NCBI GenBank assembly: GCA_016932575.1
Contig: JAFGCO010000032.1
Location: forward strand, 1-15,765
Length of the DNA stretch: 15,765 bases
Direction: 5' to 3'
Source: a bacterium
GTDB taxonomy: Bacteria; Zhuqueibacterota; QNDG01; JAFGCO01
Shown here: positions 1 to 15,256 of the stretch, in pieces
Numbering within the stretch: position 1 is the first letter of the stretch
Layout: the number at the start of each line of letters is the position of its first letter
Position numbers and translations under genes: made by a program
The notes under the pieces: generated by a model
The model's input: the letters and a program-made list of their open reading frames with translations, nothing else
Told to the model about the DNA's origin: nothing
Databases searched by the model: none

Positions 1-2583
1 CATGCGGTTGTAAGCCTGTTCTATTTCATCTTTTCTTTTGACAACTTCTTCCGTACGGGCAGCAACCTCGGCTTCAAGCTGCTCGTTGCGTTTTTTAATA
101 CTCCGGGTTCGAATTTTATATGTCGCAATACCTGCACTGATGACCGAGATGAGAAGTAAGAAACGAAACCACAGGGTCTGCCAGAAAGGCGGGGATATGG
201 TGATTTTTATCGAAGCGCCTTCATTGTTCCAGATCCCGTCAGGATTGGCGGCTTTTACCCGGAACACGTATTGTCCCGGATCCAGACTTGTAAAGTTGAC
301 TGAACGTTGCGGGCCGATATGGTTCCACTTATCTTCCAATCCTTCCATTTGATAGGCATACTGATTTTTTGAGGGATTCGCATAATGAAACGCGGCAAAT
401 TCCAGGGAAAATGATTTGGCTTTATAAGACAAATGAATGGCATCGGTCAGAAAAACGGATTTTTCTAGAATGACGCGGTTGTCAAATTTTTGCCCAATCG
501 AGATGGTTTCATTAAACAGTTTAAATTTGGTAATTGTCACCAGGGGAATAAACGGATTTTCTTTGATTTCCTGCGGAAGGAAAGCGTTAAATCCATTGAT
601 ACCGCCGAAGAACATCTCTCCGGATTCACTCAGTAAATAGGCGTTGTAATTAAACTGCCTGCTTTGCAGACCATCGTCAATATCATAAGACCGGGAAATG
701 TGATTTTGCGGCTGAGCCACAGCAGCCACCAGCTGGATTATGCCCGAGGAAGAAGTGCTAATCCACAGGTTGCCTTTCTGATCTTCAAGGATCCCATGAA
801 TGGTTGTTAATAAGTTCCTGTGTTCTCCGGTGATCAGAACCGGTTTGTCTGAATTTTTTGCACAATAATGCAGTCCGTTTTCTCCGCCAAACCAAAAATT
901 TCCTCTGGAATCCTCATGAATCGCGTTTACGGCTTTTGTCAGGAATTCGGGATAAATGCGGGTTAATATCAGAGAGGATTTATTCAGAGCAAAAAGGCCA
1001 TTGGTAAACGTTCCAATCCATAATTGATTTTGACTGTCTTCAAAGAGCAGACGGACATCCCGGATAAGATTCCATGGATCCGTTCCCGATATGTTCATAT
1101 GCCTGAAACAACGGGTTGGTATGTCATATAAATCCAATCCTTCCTGCGCTGCAATCCATAATTTTTGATTGTCATCCAGGTGCAAATCATAGATGTTGTC
1201 ACTGACAATGCTTGCAGGATTTTTCGGATCGTGTCTGTGATGTGTGAAACGCCCCGTTCTTATCGAATATTGATTCAGGCCTCCCTGGTATGTGCCAATC
1301 CACAGGTTGCCCTGATTGTCTTTCACGATTGATTTTACATTATTGCTGCTTATCGAGTTTTGATCAGGATGATGGTTAAAATAGGTGAAACGCCCGGTAT
1401 TCCGGTTCAGATAATTCAAACCACCATTTTCCGTTCCGACCCACAGATTGCCTGAATCATCCTCGCAAAATGAAAATATGATATTGTTATTCAGAAAATA
1501 TGCATTCTTTCTCCCGGCTGAATAGTGAACAAATTCTTTTTGGTTCAGGTCCGCATAATTGGCGCCGCCAGCGTAAGTTCCCACCCAAATCACTTCGCTG
1601 GCATCGATATACAAATCATATATTGAGTTGTCTTCCAACCTGGAAAAGTCATGTTCCGAATACGCATATCGGTGAAATGTGAATGACTCAGGATCTTTCC
1701 GATATAAACCGCTTCGTGTTCCCACCCAGAGTATGCCCCGGCTGTCCTCAGTCAATCCTCTGACGCGGTCGCTCCTCGGATTGTCCTGATCGATAGTGAA
1801 TCGGGTAAAAGTGAGTTTGTGACGATTTAAAAGGCTCAGACCGTGGTTGTTTGTTCCGATCCATAGATTTTGGTGCCGATCTTCGTAAATGGTATTGATT
1901 GAATTGCCGCTTATGGATTTCGGATCGGAGAATTTGTGCCGAAAAGCAGTAAAGGTATCCGTATTCCGATCAAGAAGGTAAAGTCCGTCGTTCAGTGTCC
2001 CAATCCAGAGATTCGCTTGGGAATCTTCGTAAATGCAGTGAATTCGGTTGTTGGAGGGGCTCTCTTCGAATTTCCAGGTTCCCAAAATCCGGTGTGTTTT
2101 CGAGTTCAGACAGAACAGGGTATCTGATGAAGCCGTCCAGATGTTGCCCTGTCTGTCCATGCAAAGTGCGATGGTATATTGAAAAGATTTTTTTCCATGA
2201 TCATATTTTAATTCCACAAAATGATTCCTGTCGCGATTATAGACGATCAGCCCTTTCCCGTCTATACCGACCCAGAGATCCCCATCATTATCCACAATCA
2301 GGTCCTTTATCAGGTTATCCGTCAGACTGTTTGTGTCGCCAGGATCGTGCTTGAAGTTGATTACGGAATATCCGTCAAACTTGCTGAGCCCTTCATTCGT
2401 GCCAAACCACATGAAGCCTTCCTGATCCTGACAGATACAATTGACCTTGTTGTGCGCAAGCCCTTCGTTGATTGTCAGGCTTTTAAAACGCAGCTGAGCC
2501 TGAATATTCGACCGATGAGGCGCTGAGTGTAAATTGAATGCAGCAATAAAAGATATAAATATTATAGTTAAATCAGGTTTCAT
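1..2583 (-). CDS. Two-component-regulator propeller sensor, 3' partial (output domain off the left edge)
   Basis: This is an uninterrupted frame of 861 codons from the ATG at 2583-2581 to the window edge, so the gene is cut by the window and not broken. Residues 1-21 look like a signal peptide (hydrophobic stretch IIFISFIAAF). Residues 30-670 hold 14 propeller motifs of the W-x-G-T-x-x-G-L type (for example FMWFGTNEGL near 57, NLWVGTENGG near 379, NLWIGTYQGG near 427), which suggests two seven-bladed propellers. A Y_Y_Y-type domain follows at about 715-798 (NQYAYQMEGL, PGQYVFRVKA), then a membrane helix at about 803-823 and the start of a coiled coil (EEVVKRKDEIEQAY) that runs off the edge. 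The layout and sequence parallel the upstream neighbour (2608-6084), so the hidden output may also be chemoreceptor-like; a histidine kinase is equally possible. The gene starts 24 bp after its neighbour's stop, suggesting one transcript. No clear Shine-Dalgarno is visible, which may mean translational coupling. Confidence 0.9.
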   Translation of the reverse strand, partial: MKPDLTIIFISFIAAFNLHSAPHRSNIQAQLRFKSLTINEGLAHNKVNCICQDQEGFMWFGTNEGLSKFDGYSVINFKHDPGDTNSLTDNLIKDLIVDNDGDLWVGIDGKGLIVYNRDRNHFVELKYDHGKKSFQYTIALCMDRQGNIWTASSDTLFCLNSKTHRILGTWKFEESPSNNRIHCIYEDSQANLWIGTLNDGLYLLDRNTDTFTAFRHKFSDPKSISGNSINTIYEDRHQNLWIGTNNHGLSLLNRHKLTFTRFTIDQDNPRSDRVRGLTEDSRGILWVGTRSGLYRKDPESFTFHRYAYSEHDFSRLEDNSIYDLYIDASEVIWVGTYAGGANYADLNQKEFVHYSAGRKNAYFLNNNIIFSFCEDDSGNLWVGTENGGLNYLNRNTGRFTYFNHHPDQNSISSNNVKSIVKDNQGNLWIGTYQGGLNQYSIRTGRFTHHRHDPKNPASIVSDNIYDLHLDDNQKLWIAAQEGLDLYDIPTRCFRHMNISGTDPWNLIRDVRLLFEDSQNQLWIGTFTNGLFALNKSSLILTRIYPEFLTKAVNAIHEDSRGNFWFGGENGLHYCAKNSDKPVLITGEHRNLLTTIHGILEDQKGNLWISTSSSGIIQLVAAVAQPQNHISRSYDIDDGLQSRQFNYNAYLLSESGEMFFGGINGFNAFLPQEIKENPFIPLVTITKFKLFNETISIGQKFDNRVILEKSVFLTDAIHLSYKAKSFSLEFAAFHYANPSKNQYAYQMEGLEDKWNHIGPQRSVNFTSLDPGQYVFRVKAANPDGIWNNEGASIKITISPPFWQTLWFRFLLLISVISAGIATYKIRTRSIKKRNEQLEAEVAARTEEVVKRKDEIEQAYNRM

Positions 2584-2607: not shown

Positions 2608-5600
2608 TCAATTGACGTGAAGCATCACATCATTGTCATTTTTCTTGCGGTGCACCTCAAGCGACTGAGCCAGGGCAGAGAGTTCTTCAATTCTTGTTCC
2701 GACTTCTGATGTGCTGGCATTCACTTGCTCCACTGTTTCTTTGTTTTTCTCACTCACTTCGGCCACACTGTCAATCGCACTGCGCACTTTTTTGGATAGC
2801 TGCTGCATCTCATTGACTTTGGATACGATTGACAGTAACCTTTCTTTCTCAGCTTCGACAGATTTACATATTTTATCCAGAATGGCGCGTCCCTCATGTG
2901 TGATCTGGGATGATTGTTTGACATTGTTCAGACCCTTGCGGGTGATTTTTTCAATATGAGACACATCTCCCTGTATCTGGGCAATGGTGTCTGCGATTTC
3001 ATAAGTAGATTCTGTTGCCCTTTTGGCAAGATCCCGAATTTCATTTGCCACCACTTTAAATCCCCGACCGGTTTCTCCGGCTTTCACGGCTTCTATCTGT
3101 GCATTCAGCGCCAATACATTGACCCGGGATGCAACATCTTCAATAAATCGAATCACTTCGTCGATTTTGGCGGAATGCTTCATCAGATTTTTCATCACAT
3201 TCCAGATTTCATCAACATTTGCTTCGATTTCCTGCATGCTGTCCAATGTTGATTGCATAGATGCGGTACCGGTCTCGACAGCATTGACCGTGTTTTCTGC
3301 AGCTTTGCTGCTGTGCTTGGTTTGATAAACCACTTTTTGAATGGTATTTAGCAGATTATCAATGATTTCCCGCGTTTGCATCACAAAATCGTTTTGAGAA
3401 ATGGCACCTTCTTTCACTTCTTTCATAGCAGTGTTGATCTGGGCCGTCGCTATATTGACCATTTTTGAATTGGAAGCCAGATGCCGGCCGGTTTCGGACA
3501 GCTTTTGATATGAATCCTCAATTTCGTTTTTCTTTTGCACCAATTCGGCTGTGCGTTCTTCCACCTGCAGTTGAAGCAATTTCTGTTGCTCGGCCAGGCT
3601 GCGCACACGGATTCGATAGATCATACCAATCACAAAGGCTATTAGGCCGAATGCTACAATTCGAAACCACCAGGTGGCCCAGAATGGGGGAGAAATTGAA
3701 ATTCGAACTGAAGCGCCTTCTTCATTCCAGATTCCGTCATTGTTCGAAGCCTTTACCCGAAATGTGTAGTTACCCGGATTCATATTGGTATAGATGGCTC
3801 TTCTCTGCGTTCCGACATAGTGCCAGGCATTTTCATCATCATATCCTTCAAGGATATAGGCATACTGGTTCTTTTCAGGCGCAGTGAAGTCTAATGACAC
3901 AAATTCAAATGAAAATTCATTCTGCTTATAAGTCAGTTCAATGGCTTCAGAAATGCTGATATGTTTTTTGATCGGGGATCCCTTTTTACCGATGGCTACA
4001 GGCCTGTTGAAAAGTTGAAAATCCGTGATCACAACCGGGGGCGGATTCTCATTCAGCTTCAAACTGTCCGGATGGAACACGCTGAAGCCCTTGATCCCGC
4101 CAAAATAGAGATGACCTGAATTTGATTTTATACCGCTTCGCCGGTTGAAATCATTACTCTGTAATCCATCCGACTGAAAATAGTTTTTAAATTCATCTGT
4201 TTCCGGATTAAAATGAGACAGCCCCCGTTTCGTGCTGATCCACAAATCATGATGATCGTCTTCCACAACTTGCATCACACTCTCATTGGCCAGGCCATCA
4301 AATTCATCATAGGTTTTAAATGTCCCCTTTTCTTTATCAAATCGGTTCAGACCCAGCTGGGTACCCGTCCAGACAGTCCCATCACTGGCCTCGAAAATTG
4401 AAGTCACCACATTGCTGCTGATACTTGTGCTGTCATTCTCATCGTGACGGTATGTGGCAAACCGGCGTGTCTCGATATTAAAAATACAAAGTCCGTTATA
4501 ACCGCCTATATATATATCACCGTCATGAGAAACCTCGATATCTGTGAGAGACATATCATGGAGATCACTGTTGTCGGTTGTATAATGGATCACGGAGTAT
4601 GTTTTCGGATTGAATTCAACGAGGCCTGTTCTGTTGGTGGCAATCCACAGATTGCCCTGATGATCTTCTTCCAAATTCATGATATCATTGCTGATTAGGC
4701 CTGCGTTTTCTTTTGTAAAGGTTTTCACCTGCCCGTTTCGGGGATTGAAGCGATTAACGCCTCCTCCCCAGGTACAAAGCCAGAGATACCCCTCTTTGCT
4801 TTGGGTGATATCCAGTATGGCGTTTCGATTCAGTCCCGAGTTTTTTGTATTGAAGTGGCGGTAATTACCGGTCTCAGGGTCGTACAAATCCAGTCCGCCG
4901 CCGTCGGTTCCGATCCAGATTTTTCCACCATTTCCTTCGATAAATGAAGTGACTGAATTGTGACTCAGACTGTTTGGATCGCCTTCCATCATCCAGTAGC
5001 TGTGAATGGCCTGTTTGTATTTTTTAATCACACTCAGGCCGGCATTATAGGTTCCGACCCATACATTGCCTCCCTTGTCCGCACAAATTGAGTGAATCGA
5101 GTTGCTTGACAGACTGAACGGATTGCTTTTGACATTTTGAATGTTTTTATATGTTTTGCTTGGAATATCAAAAATGTTTAAACCACCATTGGATGAGCCG
5201 AGCCAGAGTTTTTCGCCACTGCTTTCGATAAGTGCATATACATTGTTGTTGGAGGGATTGGTTCCATTCTGAGATAAATCGTGATGAATGAATCGATAAC
5301 GGCCATTCCTGTCTTTTTCACAGTGACTCAAACCTTCATACCGATACCCAATCCATAGGGTGCCCTGATAATCCACAATGAGTTTGTTCACGTCATTCGA
5401 TTTCAGACTGTATGAATTTTTGGGATCATGCTGGTACTGACTGAATTTCATGGTGTTCAAATCAAGGCAGGTAAGTCCGTTGGATGTTGCCATCCATAAT
5501 TGATGGTCGTCATCCTCTGCTATATTAATGACACTATTTTCTGTCAGACTGTTGGGATTGCCTGGTTCCGCCAAAAAATATTTAAAACGATTATTTTCCC

Positions 5601-6084
5601 GGTCATACAGATCCAGACTTTCTATAGTTGCTATCCAGAAATTGTGTTGACTGTCCTCAAAAATACAATTCACAGAATTGTTGCTGATCCCGGATCCGTC
5701 TGGCTTGGTCTGATATCTGATAAAATTATCCTGTTCACGATTGTAGAGGTTCAATCCCTGATCGGTTCCAACCCACAACTGACCGGACCGGTCCAGGTAG
5801 AGTGTTGAAATCCGATTGCTGGTCAGGCTGGTCGAATCGGTTCGATTGTATTTGTATATCTTGAAATTGTATCCATTATACCGGTTTAAACCGTAATCGG
5901 TCCCGATCCACAAAAATCCCATATGATCCTGAATTACCGCATTTACCATGGATTCTGACAATCCGTGATCCACGGTGATATGTTCAAATCGGTAACTGCT
6001 GTTGGCAGTGATTTTTATTGAGCCAGAGATAATGAAAAGTGTAATAAATACAGCAAGCCATTCTTTCAACGGATATCTGAACAT
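2608..6084 (-). CDS. Propeller sensor fused to a methyl-accepting chemotaxis signalling domain
   Basis: The protein has 1158 residues, begins at the ATG at 6084-6082 with an AAGG 7 bases upstream, and ends in TGA. A hydrophobic segment at 8-26 is a signal peptide or anchor. Residues 33-672 carry 14 Reg_prop-type blade motifs (FLWIGTDYGL near 58, LWVGTDQGL near 103, IWIGTDGGGL near 389, LWISTKRGL near 614), fitting two seven-bladed propellers as in Bacteroidetes hybrid two-component sensors. A Y_Y_Y domain covers about 715-798 (YAYILEGYDD, PGNYTFRVKA), followed by one membrane helix at about 804-826. The cytoplasmic part (827-1158) is a long coiled coil containing the conserved chemoreceptor tip (VNVLALNAQIEAVKAGETGR and GFKVVANEIRDLA, about 988-1020). 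I infer a periplasmic sensor that talks to CheA/CheW-type partners, none of which lies in the window. No histidine-kinase motifs, receiver domain or AraC helix-turn-helix are present. The 24-bp gap to the next paralogue suggests an operon. Confidence 0.95.
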   Translation of the reverse strand: MFRYPLKEWLAVFITLFIISGSIKITANSSYRFEHITVDHGLSESMVNAVIQDHMGFLWIGTDYGLNRYNGYNFKIYKYNRTDSTSLTSNRISTLYLDRSGQLWVGTDQGLNLYNREQDNFIRYQTKPDGSGISNNSVNCIFEDSQHNFWIATIESLDLYDRENNRFKYFLAEPGNPNSLTENSVINIAEDDDHQLWMATSNGLTCLDLNTMKFSQYQHDPKNSYSLKSNDVNKLIVDYQGTLWIGYRYEGLSHCEKDRNGRYRFIHHDLSQNGTNPSNNNVYALIESSGEKLWLGSSNGGLNIFDIPSKTYKNIQNVKSNPFSLSSNSIHSICADKGGNVWVGTYNAGLSVIKKYKQAIHSYWMMEGDPNSLSHNSVTSFIEGNGGKIWIGTDGGGLDLYDPETGNYRHFNTKNSGLNRNAILDITQSKEGYLWLCTWGGGVNRFNPRNGQVKTFTKENAGLISNDIMNLEEDHQGNLWIATNRTGLVEFNPKTYSVIHYTTDNSDLHDMSLTDIEVSHDGDIYIGGYNGLCIFNIETRRFATYRHDENDSTSISSNVVTSIFEASDGTVWTGTQLGLNRFDKEKGTFKTYDEFDGLANESVMQVVEDDHHDLWISTKRGLSHFNPETDEFKNYFQSDGLQSNDFNRRSGIKSNSGHLYFGGIKGFSVFHPDSLKLNENPPPVVITDFQLFNRPVAIGKKGSPIKKHISISEAIELTYKQNEFSFEFVSLDFTAPEKNQYAYILEGYDDENAWHYVGTQRRAIYTNMNPGNYTFRVKASNNDGIWNEEGASVRISISPPFWATWWFRIVAFGLIAFVIGMIYRIRVRSLAEQQKLLQLQVEERTAELVQKKNEIEDSYQKLSETGRHLASNSKMVNIATAQINTAMKEVKEGAISQNDFVMQTREIIDNLLNTIQKVVYQTKHSSKAAENTVNAVETGTASMQSTLDSMQEIEANVDEIWNVMKNLMKHSAKIDEVIRFIEDVASRVNVLALNAQIEAVKAGETGRGFKVVANEIRDLAKRATESTYEIADTIAQIQGDVSHIEKITRKGLNNVKQSSQITHEGRAILDKICKSVEAEKERLLSIVSKVNEMQQLSKKVRSAIDSVAEVSEKNKETVEQVNASTSEVGTRIEELSALAQSLEVHRKKNDNDVMLHVN

Positions 6085-6162
6085 GGGCTGCCTTCATCTT
6101 TCTCTATTTGTTAGATTCGTTGCTGTTTTGATTGTATCTTATTTGATTTGTGATATTTTTTA

Positions 6163-6191
6163 AAGATAGTGAATCCAGATCAGGAAAACAA
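6163..6191 (-). promoter_or_regulatory. Weak sigma-70-like promoter candidate for the sensor operon
   Basis: Read on the minus strand, TTGTTT (6191-6186) and TATCTT (6168-6163) are separated by 17 bp and lie about 80 bp upstream of the propeller-MCP start. They match the sigma-70 consensus at 3 of 6 and 4 of 6 positions. Such a match is common by chance in AT-rich DNA, and the organism's promoter consensus is unknown. Confidence 0.2.
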
Positions 6192-6331
6192 TTGAACTTA
6201 TGCTGCAACATGGTAAAACTTCCCTATCATACGTGTAAATAATTGATCAATCCGTTCCAAAATGTGATAATAATATTTCTGTCTAAATCTGAAAAAGTGT
6301 ATATAAGATCAAGTAAAACAGTAAATAAGAT

Positions 6332-6360
6332 CAGGCTGTTTATATCAACAGTCAGCCCTG
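6332..6360 (-). terminator. Possible weak terminator after the winged-helix regulator
   Basis: On the minus strand, CAGG pairs with CCTG and CTGTT pairs with AACAG, with a five-base bulge on one side. A T-rich stretch (ATCTTATTT) follows. It lies 190-220 bp past the regulator's stop codon. The stem is imperfect and short, so this is only a candidate. Confidence 0.2.
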
Positions 6361-6549
6361 TTTTAAACTGCTATTAGAGATATGCAAAAAGCGTTCCCTG
6401 ATCAGTTTTTTTGTTATAAAAGTTTGAAAGTCGGGGAGTTAGAAGCGTGTTCTCACAAATATATTAATACCCGGGAATGAGACTTTCTCATCAATCAATT
6501 CAAAATGATCAAGCGGGTGTAAATAATGAGTCAAGCGTTCGGACTAAAG

Positions 6550-7764
6550 TCAATCGGGAATGATTTCATTGTAGATCAGAATTTCTGTATTGTAGGCTGT
6601 TTTATCGATGCCTGTAACACGGAATAAAATCTCAAAATACGGAGGCACTTTACCGAATTTTTCACGAAATTTTTGTTCAAGCGCCAATCGTGTGGAGGGC
6701 AGTGTCAGATAATAGGCAATTTCCGGGGCGCCAAGAGAGTGATATGAGGCAATAATAAAAATCGAGTTGTTGTCCGGTCCGGGCAGTTTCAGGGCCAGTA
6801 TCAGATCTTCATTCGGTCCGGAAGAATGCAGCGAGGTTTGGTATATTTTCGTTTTTCCAGTGTCTGAGGGTGTGTAGAATATTCGATGCGGAGCCACTTC
6901 AAAATCAAAGTGCGATTTCAATAATGTATGCCTTAAATTATAAAGTGTTTTAATGCTCCCCAGAAAAATGATATTGTATTCATCCAGCATTTGCGGACTG
7001 ATATCGGATGATTTACGAAGTATAGGTTTTTCATTAACAGAATATAAAATGGAAAGAATGGGGGGCAGACTCCAGATGCTGTGATAAGGGAAATAGGGTT
7101 CCTCAGCCGGGATTCCCTGATAATTTGGATAGGCTTCCTGAAGTTCTTCCAGTGAATTGATGCCCGGATGGCGCATGCTAAGGCTCTGATGATATTTTTC
7201 AATATAATCTTCAAAGAAAAAATGATCTCCCACGACAATAAGAATCGGCAAATCTGATTGTAAATAATTCTGCCAAATCGGATCGTTTTTTTGTATACAT
7301 TGATAGGGTTTCAGCCTTTTATCGAGTTGAATGTTCTGAATAACCAGGTAAGTCACGCAAATGAATAACAGTGCAATAATCGGGATATAAAGTTTTTTCC
7401 TGAGAAAAAGCAATATATTTTTCGGATGGTAAATGTTCTCCGAGACAGGGACAAATTTTGTTGTGTAATGTCCCTTCGGGATTCTTAAACGAAACTTGTC
7501 ATCTTTTCCTTCATGAAAATAGTAGCTTTCAAGTTTTTTTCTTAATGTATAGGTATGAGACCGGACAATCGTATCTTCGGCAGGATTGAAACTGGCGTCT
7601 TTGCCGAAGATGTCCATGGCTATAACGGTTTCTTTCAGGTTTTTTCCCTGTTTGCTGGATTCAACCAGATAGGCCAGATAGGTTTTATAGAGTTCTGAAT
7701 GCGAGAACTCTTTGCTGTCGAGTATTTTTTCAAGCAGTTTTTTATGGGTTGCTTCAAGTGTCAT
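6550..7764 (-). CDS. Membrane-anchored winged-helix-like transcriptional regulator with unknown periplasmic domain
   Basis: The protein has 404 residues. Residues 7-104 match the N-terminal DNA-binding region common in acidobacterial regulators and related to the CadC/OmpR-type winged helix. The recognisable elements are KILDSKEFSHSELYKTYLAYL, then LKETVIAMDIFGKDASFNP, then DTIVRSHTYTLRKKLESYY, and the closing RLRIPKGHY. One membrane helix lies at about 125-145 (IPIIALLFICVTYLVI), which puts the DNA-binding part in the cytoplasm and residues 150-404 in the periplasm. I do not recognise the periplasmic domain; it includes LPILIVVGDHFFFEDY, IIFLGSIKTLYNLRH and IFIIASYHSLGAPEIAYYL. The plan resembles CadC/ToxR one-component regulators, in which sensing and DNA binding share one chain. 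The gene is divergent from the TonB-dependent receptor operon, so that operon is its natural candidate target. The start has no obvious Shine-Dalgarno, but the domain begins right after it. Confidence 0.88.
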   Translation of the reverse strand: MTLEATHKKLLEKILDSKEFSHSELYKTYLAYLVESSKQGKNLKETVIAMDIFGKDASFNPAEDTIVRSHTYTLRKKLESYYFHEGKDDKFRLRIPKGHYTTKFVPVSENIYHPKNILLFLRKKLYIPIIALLFICVTYLVIQNIQLDKRLKPYQCIQKNDPIWQNYLQSDLPILIVVGDHFFFEDYIEKYHQSLSMRHPGINSLEELQEAYPNYQGIPAEEPYFPYHSIWSLPPILSILYSVNEKPILRKSSDISPQMLDEYNIIFLGSIKTLYNLRHTLLKSHFDFEVAPHRIFYTPSDTGKTKIYQTSLHSSGPNEDLILALKLPGPDNNSIFIIASYHSLGAPEIAYYLTLPSTRLALEQKFREKFGKVPPYFEILFRVTGIDKTAYNTEILIYNEIIPD

Positions 7765-7950
7765 ATCGAATATGCTTTACATCTTTTTTTTTCGGGGCGT
7801 GCCGTGTATTTTTTTTATGTTTTCAAAATATGGTTTTTTAAATCAAATATGACATCCACGATTTTCGGCTGGCCTGATATTGAAGGCGTGTATTATCTCA
7901 TTCGTTGGAAATGTAATAACTATAATTTTTAAATGCAAGCACGATGTTGC

Positions 7951-7968
7951 ATTCCACGTATTTGGAAT
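7951..7968. repeat. 18-bp dyad ATTCCA-N6-TGGAAT
   Basis: Two perfect 6-bp arms flank a 6-bp spacer, the geometry of a site for a dimeric regulator. It lies about 190 bp upstream of the winged-helix regulator's start and 40 bp before the larger repeat cluster. A 6-bp dyad can occur by chance. Confidence 0.35.
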
Positions 7969-8009
7969 ATTTTTGGATTAAGCAGAAAAACAGGGGCAGT
8001 TTCACTCAA

Positions 8010-8047
8010 ATTCGACATTTTTTAACGGATGTTAAAAAATGTCGAAT
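8010..8047. repeat. Perfect 17-bp inverted repeat with 4-bp loop
   Basis: The left arm ATTCGACATTTTTTAAC (8010-8026) is exactly complementary to the right arm GTTAAAAAATGTCGAAT (8031-8047), with GGAT between. It is in noncoding DNA between divergent promoters, not just after a gene, so an operator or a leader-RNA hairpin fits better than a terminator. Confidence 0.85.
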
Positions 8048-8050
8048 CAT

Positions 8051-8080
8051 GTTTTTCACAGTTTTTCACAGTTTTTCACT
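8051..8080 (+). repeat. Three tandem 10-bp repeats GTTTTTCACA
   Basis: Three copies of GTTTTTCAC followed by A, A and T lie head to tail, immediately right of the perfect inverted repeat. Ten-bp periodicity puts the copies on one face of the helix, as expected of regulator sites; replication slippage could also produce such an array. Confidence 0.7.
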
Positions 8081-8293
8081 TAAACTTTGAGTAAAATTAT
8101 GTTTTATTATTCAGGATTCTATAGGGCACACTATTCAAAACCTATCAGCAGCAAGCGGATAATTTGATATTTAACGTTATATGATCCAGTTTTATGTATT
8201 TATTTTATTATCTTCAAACCGATGTTTCGAAAGCCAAATGATTTATTCATGTCCAATTAACTACTGTATACTTTATTTTAAGGAGGAAGAGAA

Positions 8294-11200
8294 ATGAGGA
8301 AATCTTTGTCAACCGTCATTCATAGCCTGATTTTGATTCTTATAATAGGGTTATGCGTGTCAGGAACCGCTTTTTCACAAACCACAGGAAAGATCGTCGG
8401 AACTGTGGTTGATGTGAATACCGGTGATCCTCTGCCCGGAGCGAATGTGCTTGTCGCGGGCACCAATTTTGGGGCCGCGGCAGGGGTGGATGGCTATTAC
8501 ACCATCATCAATGTCCCTGCCGGCATTCATGATGTGCAGGTTTCTGTTATTGGGTATAAAAAAGTAATCCAAAAGGATGTGCTGGTTTCTGTTGATCAGA
8601 TTGCCCGAGTGGATTTTGATCTGGAAATGGAAGTGGTACCAGGAGAAGAAGTGGTGGTTTATGCGGATCGGGACATTCTGCATAAAGAGGTTTCCAACAG
8701 CCAGCTGGTTGTCACCGCAACAGAAATGACCGAGTCTGCGGGTATCCGTACCATCAACCATTATCTTGAAAAGCAGCCCGGTATCACCGGTGAGAATCAT
8801 CTGGAGATCCGGGGTGGCTCTGCCGATCAAACCGGAACCATTGTGAATGGATTGACTTTTGTGAATCCCCGAATCGGAACGGCCTCGGCCAGTATTCCTA
8901 TCAGCTCGGTGGAGCAGGTGAGCCTGGTGACAGGCGGTTACAGTGCCGAATACGGCAATTTCCGGTCGGGCCTGATCAATATTGTGACAAAATCGGGAGA
9001 CACCGACCGCTACTCGGGTTCATTGAGCTATTCGCGCAATATCCCGGGGATGAAACGGTTCGGAAAATCACTTTACAATCCGGACAATGTTCTTTTACGG
9101 CCGCTCTTTGATCCGGAGCCAGCTTTTAAGGGCACGGCAGCCGTTTGGCCGCAGGATCAATATCCCATGGAGTATGAAACATACCCCCTGTTCCGGGGAT
9201 GGAACCGGTTGGCAGAGGCCTATAACCGGGGTCTTCCGGAGGAGGATCAGGTATCCCCTGTCGACCTGTATCTCTGGTCTGCCTGGATGTATCAGGTTAA
9301 GCCGGATTTTGACGCCTTGAAGTATTACGCGGATACATCAGGTATGGCTTATACGGTGACCGACGCCCAGATTCAGGCAATTATCGATCATGCCCATGAG
9401 TCGGAAGGCAGTCATGCCGATTACAATCTGGATTTCGGTGTCGGCGGTCCGCTGCCGGTGATCAATGAATTGCTGGGGGGTGCGACCTTTTATCTCTCTC
9501 ATCAGACCCTCAACACCAACTATATCCAGCCGGTAACCCGGAACGCCGAGAATACATCGACGACCATGCTCACCATGAAATACAATATTGGCAAGAGCCT
9601 GACTGTGAAGATTAACAACCTTTACCGGAAGATCAAAGGCATTGCGCCGGTCATGCCGACTTCAGGGGCCGTGCCGAGTCTGGGCGATCCGGATGATGCC
9701 GATTCCGGCGGCGGCGGTATGATGGAAGAAAACAATCTTGCCAAATTATTTGATCAGGGGGACGTTTACTACTGGCACCCGACATTCTGGCATCCCAAGG
9801 ACCAGACACTGTATATGACAGGGACCAGCCTGAATTATGTCGTTAATCCCAAAACATTTATAGACCTGACCCTTTCCTATGCCTGGCAGAAAGATTTTTC
9901 AGAGCCTAAGTTCACCCGTGACCGTACCGGGATTATCAATTTCGGACCTGTCTGGGTGAATGAAATGCCCTATGGACGGACATTTTCAGCGGATACGGTT
10001 TATAATCCCCAGGATCCCACTGATTTTTATGTGCACAGTATTTTTGAAGATGTGGGGGGTGAAATCGTCAGTGCGACCGGCCGCCGGTTTTCCGGAAAGA
10101 CCGGGATGTACAATGAAAATTCTGTCACACAGATGTTCCGTGTGAAAGGCGATTTGAGCAGCCAGATGACCCGGCACCATTTTCTCAAAGGCGGATTTGA
10201 TTTAAATTACTATGATCTGGACAATGATCTGTGGGTATACTGGACCGGTTATGACACCGATTATGATCTGCGTTTTCATGTGAAGCCCTGGCAGCTGGGC
10301 GGCTATATTCAGGACCAGATTACCTATGAAGGTATTGTGGCCCGGCTGGGTCTGCGCATCGATTATTATAATTCGGGCGGTGCGATGTGGCCCACGGGAG
10401 ACCGGTTTAATGCAGAAGCCTTTGTGGAAGGCGAGGAAGGCGCCCATCCGGCCATGGACAATTACCGATATGAATTTTTAAGCCAGGGAATAAATGTGGC
10501 ATGGGATCGGTTTAATCGGATTGACGAGGAATATCGAGAGATTATTAAGAACAATCCGGATACAACCCTCGTACCGTTTATGCAAAAAACCAAGAATCAT
10601 CTGGCCATCAGTCCCCGCATCGGAATTTCTTTTCCGGTGACCGAGCGGTCCAAGTTCTATTTTAATTACGGCCATTTCCGGTCCGCCGTTCCCTATTCTG
10701 AAATGTATATGTACAATTACCGGTACAGCAAGGGCCAGGGGCTGAACACCATCGGCAATCCCAACCTGGCGCCCCCGCGCACCATTTCATACGAGTTAGG
10801 CGGATCTTACAATCTCGCGGATCAGTACCTGATTACGCTCAGCGGTTTTTATAAAGATGTGACCGGACAACACACGAATCTCAATGTGGACGGGCAATCC
10901 ATTGCCGACGGGTATACGACACGCACGAACAATGAATACGAAGACATTCAGGGTCTGGAATTGGACGTGCGGAAGTCTGTGGGCAAATATCTCACCGGCT
11001 GGATCAATTTCCGCTATCTTTTGGAGAAAGACGGCAAGGTCGGCCGGGAGTACCTGTATGAAGATCCGGAACGCAATGAAGATGCGGAGCAGATTTATTT
11101 TGAGGCCGAAGAGGACCGGCCGGCTCCCCGGCCCGCTGCGGCAGCCAATCTGACATTTCATGTGCCCTATGATCTGAAAATGGGGGGAATTGGCAACAGC

Positions 11201-11896
11201 CTTCTGGGCGGCTGGCTGATCAGCGGTATCTTTGAGTGGGAAATGGGTGAAGCCTATACACACAACCCGGAAGATATCAGAAACGTCAGCAACAACATCC
11301 GCTGGCCGGATTACTATATGGTCGACATGAAAATTTCCAAGGGTTTCGAGATCATGAAAGGCATCCGTGCCAGCTTCTATGTGGATATTCAGAACCTGCT
11401 GAATCTGAAAGTGAACTGGATGAATAAAGAATGGTGCTTCCGAAGCGCCATTGACCGGGACGCTTACCTGAATTCTTTGCGGCTGCCCATGTATGATGAT
11501 CCTGAATATAAGGACAAAATCAAAATCAGTGAAGAGGGAGTGACACCCGAGGAATATGTATATCAGGGCAAAATCAGTCCGTCGGGCAACCCGTATTTTG
11601 CCGGAGACGATCGTCCCGGTGATTTAAGACCGGATGATGTGCCTTATCAGGCATTTCAGGAAGTTGTTGATTTTTCGGATGAAACAGCGAGTCAAAGGAA
11701 TGCGATCTATTATGAAATCAAAACAGGAGACTATTACGAATACGCTGAAGATTCCGAAATGTGGGTGAAGGCTGACAAGAAAAAAATAAAGAAAATAATC
11801 AACGATAAAGCCTATATCAACAATCCAAACAATAAGGATTTGTGGCTCTATGGATATCCGAGAGAGATCTGGGTCGGTGTGAATATCAGTTTTTAA
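8294..11896 (+). CDS. TonB-dependent outer-membrane receptor with carboxypeptidase-regulatory-like N-terminus
   Basis: The protein has 1200 residues, preceded by AAGGAGG (8280-8286) 7 bases before the ATG. A signal peptide ends near residue 29 (CVSGTAFSQ). Residues 32-112 are a carboxypeptidase-regulatory-like fold (GKIVGTVVD, DPLPGANVLV, VDGYYTIINVPAG). A TonB-box-like EEVVVYA lies at 118-124, followed by the plug at about 133-236 (LEIRGGSADQTGTIVNGL, GGYSAEYGNFRSGLINIVTK). The rest is a large beta-barrel ending in the aromatic residue of WVGVNISF. The role is energised import of a bound ligand across the outer membrane. The plug resembles receptors of Calditrichota/KSB1-type genomes more than classic SusC, and no SusD partner follows. 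The long stretch before the last strand (about 1030-1190) includes an acidic, glycine-containing GDDRPGDLRPDDV, which I recall as recurrent in this receptor group. The ligand cannot be told from sequence. Confidence 0.95.
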   Translation: MRKSLSTVIHSLILILIIGLCVSGTAFSQTTGKIVGTVVDVNTGDPLPGANVLVAGTNFGAAAGVDGYYTIINVPAGIHDVQVSVIGYKKVIQKDVLVSVDQIARVDFDLEMEVVPGEEVVVYADRDILHKEVSNSQLVVTATEMTESAGIRTINHYLEKQPGITGENHLEIRGGSADQTGTIVNGLTFVNPRIGTASASIPISSVEQVSLVTGGYSAEYGNFRSGLINIVTKSGDTDRYSGSLSYSRNIPGMKRFGKSLYNPDNVLLRPLFDPEPAFKGTAAVWPQDQYPMEYETYPLFRGWNRLAEAYNRGLPEEDQVSPVDLYLWSAWMYQVKPDFDALKYYADTSGMAYTVTDAQIQAIIDHAHESEGSHADYNLDFGVGGPLPVINELLGGATFYLSHQTLNTNYIQPVTRNAENTSTTMLTMKYNIGKSLTVKINNLYRKIKGIAPVMPTSGAVPSLGDPDDADSGGGGMMEENNLAKLFDQGDVYYWHPTFWHPKDQTLYMTGTSLNYVVNPKTFIDLTLSYAWQKDFSEPKFTRDRTGIINFGPVWVNEMPYGRTFSADTVYNPQDPTDFYVHSIFEDVGGEIVSATGRRFSGKTGMYNENSVTQMFRVKGDLSSQMTRHHFLKGGFDLNYYDLDNDLWVYWTGYDTDYDLRFHVKPWQLGGYIQDQITYEGIVARLGLRIDYYNSGGAMWPTGDRFNAEAFVEGEEGAHPAMDNYRYEFLSQGINVAWDRFNRIDEEYREIIKNNPDTTLVPFMQKTKNHLAISPRIGISFPVTERSKFYFNYGHFRSAVPYSEMYMYNYRYSKGQGLNTIGNPNLAPPRTISYELGGSYNLADQYLITLSGFYKDVTGQHTNLNVDGQSIADGYTTRTNNEYEDIQGLELDVRKSVGKYLTGWINFRYLLEKDGKVGREYLYEDPERNEDAEQIYFEAEEDRPAPRPAAAANLTFHVPYDLKMGGIGNSLLGGWLISGIFEWEMGEAYTHNPEDIRNVSNNIRWPDYYMVDMKISKGFEIMKGIRASFYVDIQNLLNLKVNWMNKEWCFRSAIDRDAYLNSLRLPMYDDPEYKDKIKISEEGVTPEEYVYQGKISPSGNPYFAGDDRPGDLRPDDVPYQAFQEVVDFSDETASQRNAIYYEIKTGDYYEYAEDSEMWVKADKKKIKKIINDKAYINNPNNKDLWLYGYPREIWVGVNISF

Positions 11897-11935
11897 GTCC
11901 GTGATTCAGAACTGAAAACAAGGAGAACAATTGAA

Positions 11936-14194
11936 ATGAAAATGTTTTATAAACAGATGCTCCGACAGACGTTTCCGGCACTGCTGCTTCTTGCTGTGGT
12001 GCTGATGAGCGTTATGTCTGCCGAAATGCTTTACGCAGACGGTGAAAAAACCGTCATCCGGATGGGGAAATTCTGGTGCGGTGTGGTGGATGACGGCGGC
12101 ACGGCCACGTTTGAATACGGGAATTTCAGCTGGTTTCCCAATGATTACAACTGCCAGGGGCCCTCGCTGCAGGACGGTTCCGGTCAGACCGGTTCCGGTT
12201 TTATCATGGCCGCGACCAATTGGGAAGATCCACTGGGAAATGTCATTCCCAAAGCGGCGATCCTCTGGTCGCCGGATTCTGATTATGAGTGGAGCCAGCC
12301 CATGGTCACCGTACCGATGACCAATTATGTGCGCTGGGAAATGCCCCTGAATTATACCATTCAGTCGACCGACACACAGGCCGAAAACAAGCAGGTCGAA
12401 CCCTGGGGCGAGGCGGATGCCTCGAAAATGATCGGTACCTGTGATCAGGTGGTCGAAGTGACCACTCAGAATCCCATGGGGGTTGAAGTTCACCGGAAGA
12501 TTTTTGCCTGGAGCCAGCAGTATCATGACGATTATATGGTTTGTGATGTTACCCTCACCAATAACAGCGGTAAAACGCTGACCGGTTTTTATCTGAATAT
12601 ACGCGAGAATGATATGTACATTCGAAAGGCTGCCGGCAGTGAACCCTCGGTGAGTGATATTGCCAACGATTCAAGACGCTATACCTGGCAGCATTATTAT
12701 GGGGCTCGTGAAGGAGACAGCCTTCGCGTATTCTATATGTATCATGGGGACAATCCCGACCTGGCGGGCGATCAAATGGGAATGCCGATTCATAATCAGG
12801 ATGGCCGGCTGTACCAGCATGAGATGCACTTTTATGCCATTTTGCATGCATCCAAGGCGCCTTATACAAATGAGGCAGAAGACGAAGATGACTGGCTGCA
12901 GCCCACAGTCACGGATGTCTATTCACGGCCCTTGGTCGGCCTGACTGAAGTGTATGCAAAAACCAATGCGGACCGTCCAAAACTCTATGATTTTATTGCC
13001 GGTTATCAAGCCACGCTCAATCCGATGGAAGGCGCGTTCGAAGGCACCTTTCATCAAAAGCCAAATGATGAATTCGGGTCGCCGGACTGGTCCTCAGAAT
13101 TGTCCGGTCTTGGTTCTGCATCCACATTTCACGGCCGGTTCTGTTCTTTCGGCCCTTACGCCGAGTTCAAGGACGGAGAAAAACTGCATTTTGTATATGT
13201 GAGCGGTTTTGCCGGTTTAAGTATTGAAAAAGCCAAAGAGATCGGCGAAAAGTGGCTGGCGGGCACACTCGAGGAACCGCCCAATCTGCCGAATGAAAGG
13301 ACCGGATATCTGCCGGAGAATTTTGCGTTTCCGACCGATGATGAAAACAACAACCGGAAAAACCGGTGGTTAAGCACGGGCGTTGATTCGGTGATGGCCA
13401 GTGTTTCCCGGGCCAAATGGAACTACGAGCATGACTGGCAGGTGCCCATGGCCCCGGAGCCGCCGCATATGCTCATTTTCGGCACAGGAGAGGGCGTTGA
13501 AATACACTGGGCGGCCCCTGAAGCCGAAGACATGTTGAATTTCTGGGGATATCGCATCATGCGCCGCGTCGGGTATCAGGATACGGTTTTTTATGAAGAG
13601 GTGGATCGCTTTGATATGAATGCCCTGGATGATCTGGCGGATACTGTGAGGATCGGCTCCATGATCTATGACGGCTATAAGTTTCTGGATGACAGTGTGC
13701 TGGCAGGCGCTTCTTATTATTATTATGTACAGTCCGGCATTGAAGTGGATGAAGATGATTTCGATGCCTACCCCACAACGCGCGGTAAAATTCTGTGGAG
13801 CGGCCGGGTATGGAGCACCTCCCGGCTGGATGTGAATCCGAAGCGGCCCATCGGCAGCACGCTGAGCGATATTCGTATTGTGCCGAATCCCTACTATATC
13901 TCGAATTCCTATTTGTCCAGTGATTACGGTATCAACCCCGATGATCCCCGTTTAATTATGTTTTTTAATCTGCCAAAGACGTGCAAGATAAAAATATTTA
14001 CAGAAAGCGGCGATTTGATCAAGACCATCAAACACACCTATACGGAAATTTCCAGCCTGGAAGTCTCTTCAGGCTGGGAAGAATGGAACATGGTTACGGA
14101 CAATCAACAGGCCATTTCAAGCGGGATTTACATTGCCGTGTTTGAGACACCTGCAAAAGAAGTGGCTTATCAGAAATTCATTGTTGTTCGATAG
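11936..14194 (+). CDS. Large secreted protein with Fn3-like and T9SS-like C-terminal domains
   Basis: The protein has 752 residues; AAGGAG (11920-11925) lies 10 bases before the ATG. Residues 12-34 form a signal peptide (FPALLLLAVVLMSVMSAEM). Residues 35-500 are an aromatic-rich region I do not recognise. About 505-605 look like a fibronectin-III-type fold (VEIHWAAPEAEDML, WGYRIMRRV, SYYYYVQSGI). Residues 647-752 resemble a type IX secretion or FlgD-like C-terminal domain: IVPNPYYIS, NLPKTCKIKIFTESGDLIKT, SSGIYIAVFE and the terminal QKFIVVR. I infer a protein carried through the outer membrane and kept at the surface or released. It starts 39 bp after the receptor and ends 24 bp before the PorV-like gene, so it is probably co-transcribed with both and may act with the receptor. 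No catalytic motif was seen. Confidence 0.9.
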   Translation: MKMFYKQMLRQTFPALLLLAVVLMSVMSAEMLYADGEKTVIRMGKFWCGVVDDGGTATFEYGNFSWFPNDYNCQGPSLQDGSGQTGSGFIMAATNWEDPLGNVIPKAAILWSPDSDYEWSQPMVTVPMTNYVRWEMPLNYTIQSTDTQAENKQVEPWGEADASKMIGTCDQVVEVTTQNPMGVEVHRKIFAWSQQYHDDYMVCDVTLTNNSGKTLTGFYLNIRENDMYIRKAAGSEPSVSDIANDSRRYTWQHYYGAREGDSLRVFYMYHGDNPDLAGDQMGMPIHNQDGRLYQHEMHFYAILHASKAPYTNEAEDEDDWLQPTVTDVYSRPLVGLTEVYAKTNADRPKLYDFIAGYQATLNPMEGAFEGTFHQKPNDEFGSPDWSSELSGLGSASTFHGRFCSFGPYAEFKDGEKLHFVYVSGFAGLSIEKAKEIGEKWLAGTLEEPPNLPNERTGYLPENFAFPTDDENNNRKNRWLSTGVDSVMASVSRAKWNYEHDWQVPMAPEPPHMLIFGTGEGVEIHWAAPEAEDMLNFWGYRIMRRVGYQDTVFYEEVDRFDMNALDDLADTVRIGSMIYDGYKFLDDSVLAGASYYYYVQSGIEVDEDDFDAYPTTRGKILWSGRVWSTSRLDVNPKRPIGSTLSDIRIVPNPYYISNSYLSSDYGINPDDPRLIMFFNLPKTCKIKIFTESGDLIKTIKHTYTEISSLEVSSGWEEWNMVTDNQQAISSGIYIAVFETPAKEVAYQKFIVVR

Positions 14195-14218
14195 TAAAAT
14201 ATAAGGAGAATAATCGCT

Positions 14219-15256
14219 ATGAAGCGTATAATACCCTTTTTTATCATTGCGTTGCTACTCGGCTCGATGATGCCGGTATTGGGCCAGCAGTATAACGGGG
14301 TGGGGGTCGGTCTGAAAAAACTGGGCCAGTCCACCATGAATTTTCTGCAGGTAGGTGTGATTCCCCGTGCTTCCGGATTGGGAGATGCCTATTCCGCAGT
14401 GGGAACCGGCTCGCACAGTATTTTTTACAATCCGGCCGCATTGCCTGAAATTGATGGGACCGCCGAGGCTTTTGTCTCGACCACACAATGGATTGCGGAC
14501 ATCAATTATATGGCGGGTGCCGCTGCCCTCAACCTGAAAAGCTATGGCGCCATTGGCATTCACTTTATTTTTGTGGATTATGGCGATATCATCGGTACAA
14601 GACTGCTTCCCTATGATCAGTATTCCGTCGATTCAAAAGGCTATGAGGAAACAGGGATGGTGGATAATGTCGGTGCCTATTCCGTGGGTTTATCCTATGC
14701 CCGGCGGATCAGTCAGAAATTTTTGATGGGCGGAACCATGAAGTATGTGGGGCAGGGATTGGGCAGGGTGGTGACGCCTGATTCCTCAAAAGAAGATTTT
14801 GGCGAGAACAAACTGGCATTCGACATGGGTGTGAAATATTATACAGGATTGAAGGGGTTTCGATTCGGCATGTCGATACGTAATTTTGCCACACATGTGA
14901 AATATGAAGAAATTACCACGCAGCTCCCGTTGACCTTTGCGGTCGGTGCCGCCATTGACGTCATGGAGTTTTTCAGGTCAGATGAATCTGAAGGAGATGA
15001 CCTGTTGCTAACAGCCGAATTTATTCATCCCAATAATTACACGGAACGGGTGCTTGTCGGTCTTGAATATTCGATTATGAACATGCTGGCGATCCGGGGC
15101 GGTTATATCAGCAATCATGATGTGCTTGGATTCAACGCAGGAATCGGACTGACTCCGGAAATATCCGGCAAAAAGATTGTGGTTGATTATTCGTACTCAT
15201 CCAGCATCAGTTATTTCGATGACATCAGCCGTTTTTCAATCGGATTTGTTTTTTAA
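14219..15256 (+). CDS. PorV/PorQ-family outer-membrane beta-barrel protein
   Basis: The protein has 345 residues; AAGGAG (14203-14208) lies 10 bases before the ATG. The signal peptide ends near residue 22 (MMPVLGQQ). The N-terminal signature of PorV/PorQ (UPF0164-like) proteins is clear: FLQVGVIPRASGLGDAYSAV (42-61) and then HSIFYNPAALPEIDG (66-80). Alternating hydrophobic strands follow to the C-terminal FSIGFVF with its aromatic end, as expected of a FadL-like barrel. In type IX secretion, PorV escorts cargo at the outer membrane to the sortase; relatives are abundant in FCB genomes and many have no assigned job. Linkage to a gene with a T9SS-like C-terminal domain supports a transport or display role for that partner. 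I give no gene symbol because PorV and its paralogues cannot be separated from this sequence alone. Confidence 0.9.
   Translation: MKRIIPFFIIALLLGSMMPVLGQQYNGVGVGLKKLGQSTMNFLQVGVIPRASGLGDAYSAVGTGSHSIFYNPAALPEIDGTAEAFVSTTQWIADINYMAGAAALNLKSYGAIGIHFIFVDYGDIIGTRLLPYDQYSVDSKGYEETGMVDNVGAYSVGLSYARRISQKFLMGGTMKYVGQGLGRVVTPDSSKEDFGENKLAFDMGVKYYTGLKGFRFGMSIRNFATHVKYEEITTQLPLTFAVGAAIDVMEFFRSDESEGDDLLLTAEFIHPNNYTERVLVGLEYSIMNMLAIRGGYISNHDVLGFNAGIGLTPEISGKKIVVDYSYSSSISYFDDISRFSIGFVF

Follow-up and report, generated by a model that had tools for sequence, protein, structure and literature searches.

The gene at positions 2608..6084 on the (-) strand encodes a chemoreceptor of 1158 aa whose outer part is a Reg_prop/Y_Y_Y propeller sensor and whose output is an MCPsignal hairpin. 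The window, i.e. the whole stretch of DNA that was analysed, is the entire contig C49 (15.8 kb) of a KSB1-related MAG (4.41 Mb in 72 contigs, 94.5% complete), from an uncultured phylum. The protein is a real, recurrent domain combination and a novel pairing of known modules, and trees of its two halves indicate that propeller sensors have been fused to chemoreceptor outputs at least twice. We consider it probable that this HAMP-less chemoreceptor feeds the single CheA array of its host and thereby controls type IV pili.

All the parts listed in the preliminary description (14 propeller motifs, a Y_Y_Y domain, one membrane helix and a chemotaxis signalling domain) were found by Pfam, regular-expression and hydropathy searches, and Pfam places the expected Reg_prop, Y_Y_Y and MCPsignal matches in one chain. 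The open reading frame has exactly the bounds given above and begins with ATG; all of the following features lie on the (-) strand. An N-terminal hydrophobic stretch, a signal peptide or anchor (residues 1–28, 6001..6084; hydropathy window starts 8–10), is followed by 14 propeller-blade repeats (residues about 31–671, 4072..5994). The repeats are identified by Pfam (Reg_prop, E 6.9e-55), by structure and sequence matches, and by 14 LWIGT-type blade motifs that run from residue 58 to 659 at a spacing of about 45–50 residues. Next come the Y_Y_Y domain (residues 732–797, 3694..3891; E 3.3e-17), the sequence PPFWATWWFR, and a single transmembrane helix (residues about 801–828, 3601..3684), which is the one strong internal membrane segment by hydropathy (window starts 801–810). 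Many chemoreceptors, though not all, have a HAMP domain linking the membrane helix to the hairpin; Pfam finds no HAMP match here. Instead, the AlphaFold helix and the alignments indicate a helical coiled-coil linker (residues about 829–955, 3220..3600). The MCPsignal domain (residues 956–1110, 2755..3219) scores 101.5 bits (cut-off 34.6; E 6.2e-29) and includes the hairpin tip ASRVNVLALNAQIEAVKAGETGRGF (residues 985–1009, 3058..3132). No HisKA/HATPase, receiver, or AraC-type DNA-binding domains were found in the chain by Pfam. An AlphaFold model of modest confidence (pLDDT 62, from an alignment of 4 sequences) has four-stranded blades, the Y_Y_Y domain, a helix at residues 805–825, and then a long helical hairpin.

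The outer half of the protein resembles solved propeller sensors of Bacteroides. In a sequence search against solved structures it matches BT4663 (4a2l) with an E of 1.8e-116, and the match to BT3049 (3v9f) spans residues 31–804. Foldseek likewise ranks BT4663 first for the model (E 1.3e-59). According to its PDB title and to PMC9067506, BT4663 senses heparin/heparan sulfate in B. thetaiotaomicron. Gut bacteria normally employ such propeller sensors to turn on genes for sugar degradation. Homology to this protein, at about 30% identity, is the one indication that the ligand of the window sensor may be a glycan. No SusD or glycoside hydrolase adjoining the receptor gene in the window was recognised by Pfam. 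Upstream of the receptor lies a gene for a 404-aa protein (6550–7764 (-)) that sits in a low-GC stretch and has no Pfam or PADLOC match; its sequence suggests a winged-helix-type N-terminal region followed by one membrane helix, which makes it a candidate membrane-bound regulator. A 17-bp hairpin followed by T-rich DNA (8010–8047) separates this gene from a row on the (+) strand (8294–15256) that encodes a TonB-dependent-receptor-like protein (CarboxypepD_reg and Plug), a 752-aa protein without a family match, and a PorV/PorQ-family protein. PADLOC matches to ZorA and DruC were disregarded as weak coiled-coil matches.

The inner half matches solved chemoreceptors (e.g., 6s18 and 2ch7). Its tip had been described as near-invariant, and a conserved tip is indeed present; several positions differ, however. 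The pattern N..LALNA.IEA..AGE.G.GF is retained with RV-for-QT and VK-for-AR substitutions (QTN is RVN, and EAARAG is EAVKAG), so that the window tip is related to the textbook tip and not identical to it. Profile searches recovered eight MCPs in the host genome, including the window protein. A second Reg_prop/Y_Y_Y/MCP gene on contig C45 is 45% identical to it, and the others comprise four Peripla_BP_4-MCPs, one dCache-HAMP-MCP, and one HAMP-MCP inside the che cluster. The Peripla_BP_4-MCPs (L033:3317-5689 and 5686-8097, L034:2028-4508, and L035:3468-5942) share their output family with the window receptor, and their Peripla_BP_4 repeats come after two predicted membrane helices and are apparently cytoplasmic. 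The window hairpin aligns nearly without gaps to Peripla_BP_4-MCPs over about 280–290 residues, at 38–44% identity for the copies in its own genome.

The preliminary description had proposed a sensor wired to a chemoreceptor output and had advised a search for CheA and CheW elsewhere in the genome. These are encoded in the host's single che cluster, on contig C62, which comprises CheY, CheW, CheR, CheW, MCP, Hpt, CheA with a receiver, and CheB; a large hybrid kinase and a response regulator come after the che genes. The tip lysine of the window protein (EA-x-K-AG) recurs in the che-cluster MCP, as well as in four of the six other MCPs of the genome. Moreover, the window hairpin is in register with that of the che-cluster MCP, with small compensating gaps only, and both receptors could therefore share one array. 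The shared lysine and the common register fit one array with a single CheA but are no proof of it.

The same architecture is found in five of 82 genomes of the phylum, in a search with a Y_Y_Y-membrane-MCP query that was matched end to end and in which Pfam confirmed the architecture. These are the host (two genes), three genomes of the same taxonomic order (G011, G013, and G014), and the more distant G066, which has two such receptors, the second on its contig C31. Between genomes, the output halves share 42–57% identity. The combination, called the most unusual architecture in the window by the preliminary description, is not unique: it is found repeatedly within the phylum and arose at least twice. 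In the open-licence literature searched, we found no account of Reg_prop or Y_Y_Y joined with a chemoreceptor. A large chemoreceptor catalogue contains many unassigned sensor types (PMC8547431), and so the combination may exist in databases uncommented. Wider searches added no further cases. Among 84,980 species genomes searched with lineage-A tip patterns (see below), to which lineage-B tips are invisible, propellers occurred only in the three known full-length relatives among the 80 loci listed. In 394 Bacteroidota genomes no fusion was seen at E 1e-58 with the best four candidates per genome scored, which is weak evidence of absence, and plasmid searches gave no fusion among the best matches listed.

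We propose the following mechanism. Two seven-bladed propellers and the Y_Y_Y domain would form a BT4663-type sensor in the periplasm and recognise a ligand that is probably an oligosaccharide or a comparable degradation product. Ligand binding would alter the spacing of the two C-termini of the receptor dimer, and this change would pass through one membrane helix and the coiled coil to the chemoreceptor hairpin. Lowe et al. reportedly described a scissor-type closing of BT4663 in 2012, and it is by analogy with this motion that we infer the transmembrane step. The hairpin would join the host's only CheA/CheW array and modulate CheA, and the response regulators of the array would probably act on type IV pili, in twitching or attachment.

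The pilus output is suggested by the position of the che genes next to pilus genes and by the failure to find a flagellar switch protein. FliM was not found in the host genome (94.5% complete), in which positive controls were detected, and a flagellar output in the host was rejected on this ground. The host encodes PilB, PilC, PilM, PilQ, pilin-like genes, and three PilT-family ATPases. The PilQ–PilT genes precede the che genes by about 3.5 kb, with a thioredoxin-reductase/ArsR/thioredoxin block in between; because of this intervening block, the link between pilus and che genes may be positional only. PilQ–PilT are likewise found upstream of che genes in G011 and G012. In G013 and G014 the che genes share a contig with the thioredoxin-reductase/ArsR portion of this block, and the stretches read there showed no PilT. 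FliM was not found in any of the three same-order genomes with the fusion (G011, G013, and G014). It is present in the more distant G066, and since this second fusion lineage sits in a FliM-bearing genome, the pilus link is not general. A survey of KSB1 reported flagella and chemotaxis in clades II and IV (PMC9012183). The earlier idea of a Che-like pathway for motility or attachment thus gains support from the sole che cluster adjoining pilQ/pilT and from the absence of FliM, with the output itself a prediction.

A less likely reading keeps the CheA array and assigns it another output, i.e., type IX secretion or gliding, exopolysaccharide, c-di-GMP, or gene expression. The host has a SprA-like protein (L186, G000:C6:98862-100118, in a 2056-aa frame), so that the presence of a type IX secretion system is likely, and this system or gliding could be the alternative effector. 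The receiver on CheA, the large hybrid kinase and response regulator that follow the che genes, and the missing flagellar switch protein are also compatible with such an output. Against it, PilQ–PilT adjoin the che genes in three genomes (the host, here G000, and G011 and G012), and we favour pili as the target.

Several propeller-chemoreceptor genes have propeller neighbours. The window receptor gene is followed, 24 bp downstream on the same strand, by another Reg_prop/Y_Y_Y gene (1..2583 (-), identified by its reading frame, Pfam, and hydropathy), which is cut off at the contig edge after its membrane helix. The C45 receptor is followed by Reg_prop kinases, and both G066 receptors adjoin Reg_prop hybrid kinases. 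These tandem arrangements, together with the divergent tip, are what could be expected if the MCP half were uncoupled from CheA and had a structural or adaptor role, for instance in a pairing with tandem propeller-type kinases. We regard this as improbable. The tip residues N, LA.NA, IEA, AG, and GF are kept in all five lineage-A receptors, the lysine variant is that of the che-cluster MCP, and no propeller neighbour was seen beside the G011, G013, and G014 receptors in the stretches read. An assembly error that merged two unrelated genes, one for a propeller protein and one for a chemoreceptor, might be suspected from the short window contig and the many contigs of the MAG; it is refuted by the full C45 paralogue on another contig and by full-length relatives in four independently assembled genomes, and the window fusion is neither a frame nor an assembly artefact.

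Most other propeller proteins of the host have the outputs expected of this family. Thirteen Y_Y_Y proteins score above the cut-off; besides the two receptors and the neighbour truncated by the contig edge, most of them signal through a kinase, in two cases as hybrids that include AraC-type domains, in keeping with the statement that a kinase is the normal output behind such a sensor. One Reg_prop/Y_Y_Y protein on contig C18 (L164:1792-4704 (-)) ends about 118 residues past its membrane start with no kinase domain and has a Cys-containing tail (ICASCKRIRD...HGLCPEC).

Phylogenetic analysis separates the receptors into two lineages by output domain. All five lineage-A output domains fall in a single clade (100/99) nested within the Peripla_BP_4-MCPs, and the two G066 output domains form a separate MCP clade, lineage B. 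A single ancient fusion for all was rejected in a test that joined both output groups (AU p = 0.00024). In the sensor tree, the two G066 receptor sensors have different sisters, each of which is a histidine-kinase sensor from G066 itself (100/100 and 100/97), and placing the two G066 receptor sensors in one group was rejected (p = 1.4e-6). The lineage-A sensors are not grouped in the best tree, and a single origin is compatible with the data (p = 0.09). The groups tested were set by output domain, independently of the sensor tree, and the tests were chosen after the trees had been seen. The separate output lineages and the different kinase sisters of the G066 sensors argue that propeller and chemoreceptor were joined more than once, and the same trees indicate that sensor and output have been re-paired within the G066 lineage. 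One of the kinase sisters is the adjacent gene: L158:416-4069 and L159:694-5259 encode propeller sensors that are 67% identical, one on an MCP output and the other on a hybrid kinase. Such sensor pairs, with a kinase output on one copy and a chemoreceptor on its sister, therefore exist.

We conjecture, tentatively, that in KSB1-type bacteria the giant two-propeller sensor acts as a movable cassette whose wiring has changed several times between a kinase and a chemoreceptor output. A single ligand could in that case govern gene expression and also movement or attachment driven by pilus or flagellum, with a scissor-type motion working a HAMP-less array. As related bacteria made the fusion more than once, movement or attachment is probably under the guidance of the sensor as well, most likely via pili in a host without a detectable flagellar switch protein. 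Chemoreceptors mostly sense small molecules via small Cache, four-helix, or PAS-type domains; a glycan-sensor-type domain of roughly 770 residues on a chemoreceptor would extend taxis detection to polymer breakdown products. It also suggests a route by which bacteria without a flagellum could steer pili or attachment towards polysaccharide. The sister sensors with kinase outputs pose a direct question: can the same ligand motion drive two output machines, and is HAMP needed for it?

Each half of the window receptor has known counterparts. The hairpin belongs to the same family as those of Thermotoga (2ch7) and E. coli (1qu7), with a conserved tip and a nearly gapless alignment around it, but the window receptor differs in its lack of HAMP, its giant periplasmic sensor, and the tip changes QT to RV and AAR to AVK. 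Closer to hand, the Peripla_BP_4-MCPs of the phylum share the same MCP output family and are the nearest relatives of the lineage-A output, whereas their topology, read from the sequence, has two membrane helices with Peripla_BP_4 repeats and no propellers. The host che cluster resembles Pil-Chp type systems in its linkage to type IV pilus genes and the lack of a flagellar switch, a likeness of function that is inferred from position and not from family assignment of Pil-Chp members. BT4663 and BT3049 (PDB 4a2l, 4a2m, and 3v9f) have, like the window receptor, two propellers and a Y_Y_Y domain, at about 27–30% identity; they are sensor histidine kinases/response regulators, whereas the output of the window receptor is a chemoreceptor hairpin. 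Reg_prop repeats and Y_Y_Y likewise make up the periplasmic sensor of Bacteroides-type HTCS. By its domain content, the window receptor would be classed as a chemoreceptor without HAMP and not as an HTCS, although its sensor may work as HTCS sensors do. The nearest departure from kinase output published in the open-licence literature searched is that of the Xanthomonas c-di-GMP proteins GdpX2 and GdpX3, in which the Reg_prop/Y_Y_Y sensor is likewise carried on a non-kinase output, in their case GGDEF and not a chemoreceptor (PMC6637768).
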